DNA from: Lepisosteus oculatus
Lineage: Eukaryota > Chordata > Actinopteri > Semionotiformes > Lepisosteidae
NCBI RefSeq assembly: GCF_040954835.1
Contig: NW_027167685.1
Location: forward strand, 1-64,000
Direction: 5' to 3'
DNA: 64,000 nt
The notes under the pieces were generated by a model that saw only the letters and a list, made by a program, of their open reading frames with translations, did not search any database and was not told where the DNA came from. The position numbers were made by a program, and so were the translations under genes. Below, in pieces: positions 827-5,976 of this stretch (positions within the stretch are counted from its first letter, which is position 1; every line of letters begins with the position of its first letter).

Positions 827-1034
827 ATTTCGATTCGATTTTTAAGAACTTTATTTTCTTTTCACAAAAAATTACAGGAAATCACAAATCAGAAAGCTTT
901 ACATTAATATACATACTTAAAACAGTATATATGATCACATCTCATTACATTTTGACACGGTAACAGTTACATAGCAACAATTTTCTTTTTTTCTGGTGCA
1001 AATCACATTCTTTATTTAAACATGATAATGTTTT

Positions 1035-4000
1035 TCACAGTTTCTTGAGATATTGACCTATGCTCTCTATTTCCCACAGATTTTCTGCTTCCTCCCTCCC
1101 TTCTCTCCACAGATCTCTGAGGTAATAGTTCTCTCGGGTGATGAACAGGGCCAGGCTACCTGCTGCCTTGACTGGGACCTCGATGCCTTTGAACAGCCCC
1201 ATGTTCCTCACTCTCCACAGGGCGTCTTTCCCACTGTTCACCACGGCCCAGATCCTGTCAAACACGTCAGGAGGAAGTTTGACAGGAGAGATGCCGTATA
1301 TGATGAAAGCAGCGGTCAGGGTAAATTGGGGCGAGAGAGCCTGCAGCCAATCTTCAAACTGTGCCCAGAAGGCCTTAGCAAAAAAGCAGGACCACAGGAG
1401 ATGGGTCACAGTCTCCTCCTCGCCGCAGCCCACCCTAACGCAGCGAGGGCTGGGGGTGAGGCCCCTACGGTACAAGAAAGTTCGTACCGGTAAGCACTGG
1501 TGGACGACACTCCAGGCTAAATCTCTGTGAATGTTGCACAGAAATTTAGAGGATGTGTGTTTCCACACCTTCCTTGTTTGGGCTGATGTTAAAATGCCCA
1601 CAGGGGTCTGCCTATTGTTCTGGGGTGCTACGAAATCTTCCAGTTTTTGGACGCTGACATCTCGGAGGGGAATATGGCCAATTGGGTGAGATCTTAGAAA
1701 ACTTTTAACTGTCCCATAAATTGCAGGGCATGTGTCAGAGAGTGGGACGTCCAGCTTGGGTCTGACACCCCACACTCTGAACACCTCCCTACCTACCCAG
1801 AGCCTGGAAAAATAAGTCCAGGTACGCGCTGCAGGTGCTGTTGCAAAGCCTCTCAGCACAGAGGCCAGGAAAATGCACAGCAGCTTCGTAGCAATATCTG
1901 GGACAGACTTCCCCCCTGAGGGTAGCGGCCTGTACATTATTTCCCTTCTGAGTCTTTCCTGCTTCCCACCCCATAGAAATTGAAACATCAATCTCCTCAG
2001 CACCGCCGCAACACGGTGTGGGATTGGGAAGGTAGAAGCCAGAAAATTCAAGACAGGCAAGAGCTCGGCTTTGATGACCAGCACCTTCCCTGTCATGGTG
2101 AGGTCTCGGTCCTTCCATTGCATCAGTTTTTTGTTTAAGATTGGCAATTTGTTCTGCCAATTTACTGTTCCCATCTCTTCTCCAAAATACACCCCCAGGA
2201 CCTTAATTCTCTTCTCTTGCAGCCTGAGATCATGTCCTTCTTTTGGCTCCCTCCAGTTCTGATAAAAAATCTCACTCTTAGATGTGTTAATTTTTGCGGA
2301 GGAAGCCAAAGAGAACCGATCACAGCACTGCAGAGCTCTGCTAATTGAGGCATTGTCAGAGAGGAGCAGGGTGACGTCATCCATGTATAGAGATGTCTTT
2401 ACCTCTCCTCCCCCACTTCCAGGCACTGGTATCCCATTAATGGCCTGATCCTGGCGCAAGGCACAGGCTAAGGGCTCCATAGCCAAAACGAATAACAAGG
2501 GGGATAATGGGCAGCCCTGCCTCACCCCTGAACAGACTTCAAAGGTGCGTGATCTATTGCCATTAACCATGACTCTGCTGTTGCTACCTGTGTACAGCAG
2601 GTTAATCCACTTTCTCATGATGGGGCCAAACTTCATGTGCTCAAGTACCGATGTTAAGTACTGCCGGTTTAGGCGGTCAAAGGCCTTTTCTAGGTCTACA
2701 CCTAAAATGCACAGAGGGAGGGAGCGATCCTCAGAGTACAGACAGACATCCCTCAACAAGGCCAGGTTGTCGCTCATCAGGCGTCCTGCTATCCCACAAG
2801 TCTGTTCTTTCCCTACCAGTGAGGCCACTACATTTTGTAGGCGCAGGAAAAGGGCTTTGGACAGGATCTTAGTGTCCACGCCTAACAGGCTGAGGGGTCT
2901 CCAGTTCTTTATGTCATTTTTTGCTCCTTTCTTAAACAAGAGAGAGATAGTGCCTTCTCTTAAGGAGTCAGGCAGCAATTCTGTCTTGTAGCTTTCCTCG
3001 AATAGGAGCAGTAGCGGATCCTGAAGCAGATCCCAAAAGGTGCAATAAAATTCTTTAGGGAGCCCGTCAGCACCCGGAGTTTTCCCCTTCTGTAAGCTCT
3101 CCATAGCCTGTCTCAGCTCTTCTACTGTCAAATCCCTCTCAAGTACTTCCCTATCTTCTTCACTCAAAATGTTTTCTAGCTTTGAGGTAAAAAAATGAAT
3201 ATCTTCATCCTTTACCTCTGTAGAGCTGTACAGTCTTGAGTAGAAGGCCTCGGTGCAGGAGAGGATAGCACTCGGCTCTGTTCTCTCTCGTCCCTCCTCA
3301 TCAACTACACTTTCCATGACAGTCTTGGAGCCTACCACTTTCCTGAAAAAGAAGCGAGTACACTTCTCATTTTCTTCCAAGAACTGCACTCTGCTTCTTA
3401 ACAGCACTCCTCGACTACTTTCTTCGGCTATGCTCCGGATGTCCTTTTTTAAAAGGGCGATATCCTCGAGCACATCGAAGCCACTGTGCAGCATCGTGTA
3501 GAGACGCTGCAGCTGCCTCTGTTTCCTGGCTAGCACTCCTCTCCGTCTGGCAGCAGCCTTCCTTCCCTCAGCCATGAAAAAGGCCTTTGTCCTCACCTTC
3601 ACCTCCTCCCACCACTCTCCTACTGACCCGTACAGACACTGCAAGGACAGCCACTGTGATAGTTTCTCCTTGTAGCGGGATACTACCCCCTCGTTCTCTA
3701 GCAGCTTTGTGTTGAGTTTCCAGAGGCCTGGGCCAAAGACAGTCCCGCCCTGGAGTTCCACTCTACACCCTAAAGCCTGATGATCTGAGAAGAAGACAGG
3801 CTGAAGAGTGACCCCAACAACTTTCACTCTCTCTGAGACAAAGCAATAGTCAATTCTGGAGCTGCTATTCCTCCCTGACCATGTATATCCTGCTGTTGTG
3901 GGATATATACATCTATATGTGTCTGAGAGTTTAAAGTCTTGAACTAAGTTTTGCAGGGCCAGTGAGCTGGAATCCAATTTTATCGGCGAGCTAGACTGCC

Positions 4001-4493: not shown

Positions 4494-5908
4494 TTCTCTT
4501 CGGTCTCACCTGTTACCTTTTTCTTTTTCTTTTTCTTCTTACCAATTTCCTGCCAGCCATCCTCTGAATGAGCCTTCATCAGGGTGGCAGCAGTAAAAGC
4601 GTTCACAGAGTCCATTTCAAGGAAGGGGGTAGAGGGAGGGGTGGAGAGGTTCCAGCTGTCCCCATCGCCATGCTCTCCTTCCTCCTCGCTCGGGGAGAAA
4701 ACAGAGTCATTTTTTCTTTTCCTCAAGTCCAGCTCCTGGGAGCACTGAGGGGAAAGGGGTGCAGCCGATGCACCAGTCTCCTCTTCCCCCTCACCCACCA
4801 GCTGCTGCAGATCCTCCGTGATGGACTGGATGGAGGAGAGGAGGGCATCTGTAGCACTTGCAGAGTCTGAGAAAAGCAGCTCCGCTGAATCCTGGGTATC
4901 CTCGCTGGACCCGCTCCACCGGGGGGCCCCACACTGGCCCTCGTTCTGAGGAGCAGGAGTGGGGGAGGGGTCCTCGCTGTTCTCGGGGGTTTTCAAACCC
5001 TCGTGCTTGTCTGGTGCAGTCTGCGGTTGTGGGGGCGTAGTGGATTTCTCTTCCACCAGCCCCGGAGCCACAGCGGGACTGATCCTGGCTGGAGGCTGAG
5101 AGTCTTTGTCCAACAAGGGTTCTTTGTTTGACTTGTTGTTTGCTTTGGATTTTCGGGCTGGTTTGGCTGAAACAAGCACTGCCTCATCCTTTCTCATTTT
5201 GAGTTTATTGGCGTAGGCGTGAGGGCAGTTCTTAAAAACGTGTCCTTCCGAGCCACATAAATTGCACTTTGGCAGCATTGAACAGTCAGAGGCTAAATGT
5301 CCCTGTTTGCCACAGGTCTTGCAGCATTTCACAGTGCAGGACGATGCCAGGTGTCCCACAGCACCACAGCGCCGACACACCTTTGGTTGTCCCACATAAA
5401 ACACATAGCCATTGCAGGCGCCCAGCCGGATTGTAGAGGGCAGGTGCCTTAAGCCTCCATTTACGCTGTCCGGTAGCAAGCGAACCTCGAATTTCCTTGC
5501 TCCTGTTTTTATACCATCAACATCTCTAACCTCAGTTCCATGGTGGACGGTGCAGTACTGGTTAAGCCAGGTGTGAATGTCCTCCGTCTTTGCCAGTTCC
5601 GAGAACATAACAACATGCACCGTTTTCCTCTCTCTCTGTGTCAGAGGCTGCAAGTTGATCTTCTCAAGTGCAGGAACTTTGCCTCTTTTTGCCTCAAACA
5701 CATCCACGCATTGTTCAAACAGAGGATAGGTAGCAAATACAACCTCAAATGCTTTCTGACCTGGGAGAGCGAAGATGAAATCCAAGTGCCGAGGTTCAAA
5801 GCCAAGTTCCTTCTGTAACACTTTTCTGCTGAACTGCATACGATCCATGAAGAGGTCATCCAAGAGCTCAAAACGTACAGCATTCTTACGGGATCCAAAG
5901 GTTGCCAT
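4481..5908 (-). CDS. LINE ORF1 protein: nucleic-acid-binding, three CCHC zinc knuckles, copy A
   Basis: This is the RNA-binding, particle-forming partner of ORF2 typical of Tx1/L1-like LINEs. The first in-frame ATG is at 5908 (context GAAATGG), giving about 475 residues; the frame stays open upstream but has no ATG. The N-terminal half may fold as an RRM-like module, which is inference. Three knuckles follow: CRRCGAVGHLASSC, CKTCGKQGHLASDC and CNLCGSEGHVFKNC. The C-terminal third is low complexity (Ser/Pro/Glu rich) and ends with a run of lysines before VTGETEEKCVL. It ends in an 11-13-nt overlap with ORF2. Compared with copy B only a couple of residues differ. Confidence 0.92.
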   Translation of the reverse strand: MATFGSRKNAVRFELLDDLFMDRMQFSRKVLQKELGFEPRHLDFIFALPGQKAFEVVFATYPLFEQCVDVFEAKRGKVPALEKINLQPLTQRERKTVHVVMFSELAKTEDIHTWLNQYCTVHHGTEVRDVDGIKTGARKFEVRLLPDSVNGGLRHLPSTIRLGACNGYVFYVGQPKVCRRCGAVGHLASSCTVKCCKTCGKQGHLASDCSMLPKCNLCGSEGHVFKNCPHAYANKLKMRKDEAVLVSAKPARKSKANNKSNKEPLLDKDSQPPARISPAVAPGLVEEKSTTPPQPQTAPDKHEGLKTPENSEDPSPTPAPQNEGQCGAPRWSGSSEDTQDSAELLFSDSASATDALLSSIQSITEDLQQLVGEGEEETGASAAPLSPQCSQELDLRKRKNDSVFSPSEEEGEHGDGDSWNLSTPPSTPFLEMDSVNAFTAATLMKAHSEDGWQEIGKKKKKKKKVTGETEEKCVL

Positions 5909-5976
5909 TTCAAAAACCGCAAATCGAACACTGCTTCCAACAAAAGAAAAACAATCCAACTACTCCACCTACAGGC

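Follow-up and report, generated by a model that had tools for sequence, protein, structure and literature searches.

A LINE of L1/Tx1 type within the U1 snRNA stem-loop I loop of Lepisosteus oculatus: a candidate U1-targeting retrotransposon

In the 64,000 nt of Lepisosteus oculatus DNA analysed here (contig NW_027167685.1, positions 1 to 64,000; hereafter, the window), the U1 gene is interrupted in the loop of its stem-loop I by an apparently full-length LINE that has the same orientation as the gene. It is found there in two copies, each of which sits in one 5S-U1 unit of a tandem array. The comparison of these copies suggests that an L1/Tx1-type element which targets U1 inserted independently on two or more occasions, a reading that is, in our judgement, fairly probable. 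A preliminary description of this DNA had already placed a complete two-ORF LINE in this loop and in this sense. The placement is confirmed by direct reading along with an Rfam U1 match, and the LINE appears to be complete, with ORF1 and ORF2 open in both copies. The parts of the two split genes are as follows.

5977 to 6008, minus strand: U1 snRNA nt 1-32 of copy 1, with TTGATCA at its end, in the stem-loop I loop
827 to 5976, minus strand: LINE copy 1, with open ORFs; its 3' boundary is uncertain, 826 to 833
701 to 826, minus strand: U1 3' part of copy 1, from about nt 40 (or from nt 33, position 832); Rfam RF00003
20453 to 20484, minus strand: U1 snRNA nt 1-32 of copy 2, one base changed relative to copy 1
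15308 to 20452, minus strand: LINE copy 2, both ORFs open (stop-to-stop frames 15511-18981 and 18957-20435)
15182 to 15307, minus strand: U1 3' part of copy 2, an Rfam U1 match identical to 701-826 of copy 1

Read directly on the minus strand, U1 nt 1-32 at 5977-6008 is ATACTTACCTGGCAGGGGAGATACCTTGATCA. The remainder of the gene in copy 1, with its 3' end at 701, is matched by the Rfam U1 model with 98.3 bits and an E-value of 8.6e-26. In the Rfam scan of the whole window, the split U1 copies score 94.4 and 96.9 bits, and in both of them the LINE has the orientation of the gene that it interrupts. The window was searched without success for an uninterrupted U1: Rfam at the gathering score returned the two split U1s only, and the pattern GATCACGAAG had zero matches. 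The junction and U1 patterns gave 0 matches each in viral_contigs.

It had also been claimed that the same junctions recur. On the 5' side this holds, for the break after U1 nt 32 is seen again at 20452/20453; next to nt 32, copy 1 has G where copy 2 has T. On the 3' side, the resumption of U1 is not fixed at nt 38, as first described, and falls at nt 33/34 or at nt 40. Unambiguous U1 restarts at GGTTCACCC, from position 825 downwards, the start of which we take to be nt 40 by human numbering. The 7 nt preceding it in copy 1 are CGAAATC (832-826). The junction reads AAAAATCGAATCGAAATC followed by GGTTCACCC in copy 1 and AAAAATCGGAAATC followed by GGTTCACCC in copy 2, and there is a 4 bp difference between the 3' tails of the two LINEs. 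Either U1 nt 33-39 were lost (7 nt), with an AATCG-like repeat as the tail of the LINE, or the array's own U1 nt 33-39 read CGAAATC and the insertion was a clean one. In favour of the loss, CGAAGGU is strongly conserved among vertebrate U1s. In favour of the clean insertion, by which the empty U1 would have exactly the canonical 164 nt, GAAATC is common to both copies while the bases before it are variable. When the U1 flanks are joined, their first 60 nt fold with -21.1 kcal/mol if the 7 nt are lost and with -15.9 kcal/mol if CGAAATC is kept, in which case a hairpin forms at the position of stem-loop I; this comparison does not decide the junction. No target-site duplication was seen at the LINE/U1 junctions.

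As judged from its predicted proteins, the element is an L1-group LINE with an APE-type endonuclease. In copy 1, it is built as follows.

5909 to 5976, minus strand: 5' UTR of 68 nt, of the same length in both copies
4481 to 5908, minus strand: ORF1, 475 aa from ATG, with two ZCCHC3-type RNA-binding domains and a zinc knuckle (Pfam PF23057, PF23058, PF00098)
1035 to 4454, minus strand: ORF2, 1139 aa from ATG, with an APE-type endonuclease, a reverse transcriptase and a C-terminal zf-RVT (Pfam PF03372, PF00078, PF13966)
827 to 1034, minus strand: 3' UTR with a short AATCG-like tail, without a significant fold

The N-terminal APE-type endonuclease and the reverse transcriptase of ORF2, together with an RNA-binding ORF1, are those of the L1 group. 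Among 15 PDB matches, the best solved relatives of ORF2 are human LINE-1 ORF2 proteins; the endonuclease and reverse transcriptase of human ORF2p (PDB 8sxt) are homologous over query residues 17-872 with an E-value of 6.5e-91. Among the 15 matches, the name Tx1 is absent, save for one L1-endonuclease-like entry called LTX. What we take to be the catalytic positions of the L1 endonuclease (N14, E43, Y115, D145, N147, D205, D229 and H230) are all matched in the residue alignment of ORF2, and the reverse transcriptase motif is YMDD here vs FADD in L1. Zinc knuckles in ORF1 and a C-terminal zinc-binding motif in ORF2 are traits of the Tx1 clade, though not exclusive to it; the presence of PF00098 in ORF1 and PF13966 in ORF2 is thus weak evidence for a Tx1-like element. 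A site-specific LINE of the RLE type, such as R2 or Utopia, was considered and rejected, as the nicking domain is N-terminal and of the APE type and no restriction-like domain occurs among the Pfam matches. When ORF2 was compared with viral_contigs and genome_contigs, collections of viral and prokaryote sequences in which only close relatives would be detected, there were 4 and 6 pattern matches, none of them related. The fold of the ORF2 endonuclease region from the single sequence was unusable (pLDDT 31). Neither the 3' UTR (z -0.44) nor U1 nt 1-32 together with the 5' UTR (z -0.70) gave significant folding.

The two copies are carried by unit 1 (1-7874) and unit 2 (14482-22331), which share 99.1% identity over 7.9 kb. 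In the third unit, U1 is reduced to its final ~48 nt (23028-23075), and this unit is uninformative about the LINE. Two motifs flank the split gene of unit 1.

6242 to 6249, minus strand: octamer ATGCAAAT, ~234 bp upstream of U1 nt 1
679 to 691, minus strand: 3'-box-like GTCCAAAATCAGA, directly downstream of U1

The octamer is of the kind found in snRNA distal enhancers, and GTCCAAAATCAGA resembles the consensus of the snRNA 3' box. The 457 bp upstream of U1 (6009-6465) do not differ between units 1 and 2. With the octamer upstream, the 3'-box-like motif and these identical 457 bp, the split U1s look like array genes rather than retrocopies. A consensus scan of the region upstream of U1 for a PSE gave a best site of 10 matches at -148 and none that was convincing; as this site is off the expected position, no PSE is claimed. 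The Sm-site region of the split U1 reads AATTTCTGG, where the usual sequence is AATTTGTGG, so that these U1 genes are only possibly functional. The U1 3' end of unit 3 (23028-23075), when aligned with 701-749 of units 1 and 2, differs at five positions (four substitutions and one gap), and the 700-bp spacer beside this remnant has just two changes private to unit 3. The truncated U1 of unit 3 looks decayed.

The preliminary description had further proposed that the LINE targets U1. This is favoured by two observations, namely that the copies have diverged under amino-acid selection and that they differ at both junctions; nevertheless, the units are tandem and 99.1% identical, so that a single insertion, duplicated along with its unit, could account for the recurrence, and independence is not self-evident. 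After the start codons, 12 coding differences separate the copies (9 in ORF2 and 3 in ORF1), and 10 of the 12 are synonymous, with dS 0.0091, dN 0.0005 and dN/dS of ~0.06. Under 12 neutral mutation models, with a transition bias of 1-6 and a CpG weight of 1-10 (synonymous share 0.23-0.31), at least 10 synonymous changes of 12 have a probability of 1.5e-5 to 3.1e-4. If the cluster at ORF2 codons 1148-1151 is left out, 7 of 8 are synonymous (P 2e-4 to 1.7e-3). Amino-acid selection does not act on LINEs that are passive passengers of a duplicated unit, but it does act on those that descend from different active elements; the synonymous excess suggests the latter for these copies.

The divergence of the flanks is less one-sided. 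Substitutions between the copies number 19 in the 5145 positions of the LINE and 27 in the 2705 of both flanks (Fisher P 0.0009); this P becomes 0.013 when five changes near a 19-bp gap are omitted and 0.014 when CpG sites are. The source of the contrast is the right flank (23/1879 vs the LINE, P 0.00014), whereas the left flank (4/826) does not differ from the LINE (P 0.55), and the two flanks differ weakly from each other (P 0.09). In the spacer at 1-700, units 1, 2 and 3 form a star-like pattern in which each has two changes of its own, so that in this spacer units 1 and 2 are not each other's nearest relatives. Within the LINE, the 193 bp of its 3' end at 872-1064 hold 8 substitutions, whereas 11 are spread over the 4912 bp at 1065-5976; this crowding hints at distinct 3' ends or gene conversion.

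The chief rival is a single insertion into U1, by chance or by targeting. Unequal crossing-over would then have multiplied it together with the 5S-U1 unit, and subsequent mutation and gene conversion would account for the differences. Much in the array fits with this rival: all copies seen lie in this one array, the near-identical host units are adjacent, the junction is the same to within one base, and 701-826 of U1 as well as the proximal upstream region are identical, with one base differing in nt 1-32, while the U1 remnant of unit 3 differs from both units at five places. Further, the left flank has diverged much as the LINE has, and the silent-site divergence of the LINE (0.9%) resembles that of the flanks (1.0%), as co-duplication gives. 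The 4-bp change in the tail can arise by slippage, and the 8 of 19 LINE substitutions lying within 872-1064 are a hint of gene conversion. However, 10 synonymous changes among 12 are unexpected for passenger copies, and both the junction base and the tail differ between the copies. We regard the single insertion as the less likely reading, though it is the rival of most weight, and favour independent insertions by a U1-targeting element.

Two other explanations bear on whether the LINE entered a U1 gene at all. It is known that snRNA/L1 chimeric pseudogenes arise by template switching during reverse transcription, with no insertion into a gene, and the joining of U1 and LINE in the same sense would fit with such an origin. 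But U1 is present on both sides of the LINE; its 5' side runs on into the upstream region with the octamer, and its 3' side into the 3'-box-like motif and the 5S spacer common to unit 3. As the U1 flanks and the unit sequence extend on both sides, this explanation is rejected as hardly credible. An assembly artefact, in which LINE and U1 are falsely joined or units of the array misjoined, is conceivable in a repetitive array where a U1 fragment adjoins retroviral-like sequence at 23075. Against it, the copies differ at 19 positions plus indels with their ORFs open, both junctions recur, and the window is free of N; such an artefact is quite improbable.

The preferred reading is that a recently active L1/Tx1-type LINE integrates at one U1 site, after nt 32 and in the U1 sense, by target-primed reverse transcription, and this we consider probable. 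The ORF2 endonuclease would choose the site and lead target-primed reverse transcription at U1. The LINE may be transcribed from the U1 promoter, an idea that is attractive, though unproven, given the shared sense, the 68-nt 5' UTR, the octamer and the intact upstream region. The multicopy U1/5S arrays may serve the element as a safe harbour. More tentatively, and with some doubt on our part, there may exist a LINE lineage dedicated to the loop of U1 stem-loop I, the binding site of U1-70K, in a new spliceosomal-gene niche and possibly with a U1-headed transcript from the snRNA promoter.

In its mode of action, such an element may resemble those Tx1-clade LINEs that insert specifically into small-RNA genes. 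Among these is Keno, which resides in U2 snRNA genes. Compared by description, both are APE-endonuclease LINEs at one site of a spliceosomal snRNA gene, while the target is U2 in Keno and U1 here. Mutsu and Dewa, of the same clade, occupy 5S rRNA and tRNA genes, respectively; by description, they share with the present element the choice of multicopy small-RNA genes, but the LINE here is in U1, and the 5S gene of the same array holds an LTR-type element instead. Utopia also targets an snRNA gene (U2), though with a restriction-like endonuclease, whereas the ORF2 described here is of the APE type. U1 genes themselves are targets of some Dada DNA transposons, found in U1 and U6 genes; these, however, are DDE elements with target duplications of 6-7 bp, unlike the present LINE with none seen. 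Human LINE-1, for all the homology of its ORF2p, inserts at many sites, and differs also in that ORF1 here carries ZCCHC3-type domains and a zinc knuckle. We know of no LINE that targets U1.

How an endonuclease can be directed to a single gene may be learned from site-specific LINEs, which are also of interest for targeted insertion. If U1 is indeed the target, the known natural addresses would gain a new one, in a strongly conserved region of the gene for an abundant snRNA, and a dedicated use of it would form a niche beside those of the U2-targeting Keno and Utopia. It would also raise the question of how a promoter for a 164-nt RNA could yield the transcript of a 5-kb element.

Several other elements lie in the window. 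The LTR-type element at 7875-14481, within a 5S rRNA gene, has a 4-bp duplication (GCAG) and TGTAG...CTACA ends. It contains three LTR-like stretches, the last two being inverted arms of 355 bp (13599-13953 and 14127-14481) that are 99.7% identical; a Pfam search with its 1087-aa frame (10087-13350) gave no match. The stretch at 23076-36010 is retroviral-like, with pol domains in two sets (23984-27618 and 31945-35607), and lies between the U1 fragment (last ~48 nt) and a U4 gene, adjoining both. Its adjacency to the U1 fragment is either a real rearrangement or an assembly join. Beyond it, at 36022-51342, 10 U4 genes on the minus strand alternate with 9 tRNA-Gly(TCC) genes on the plus strand, with a spacing of mostly 1686 bp, and a mixed tRNA cluster follows.
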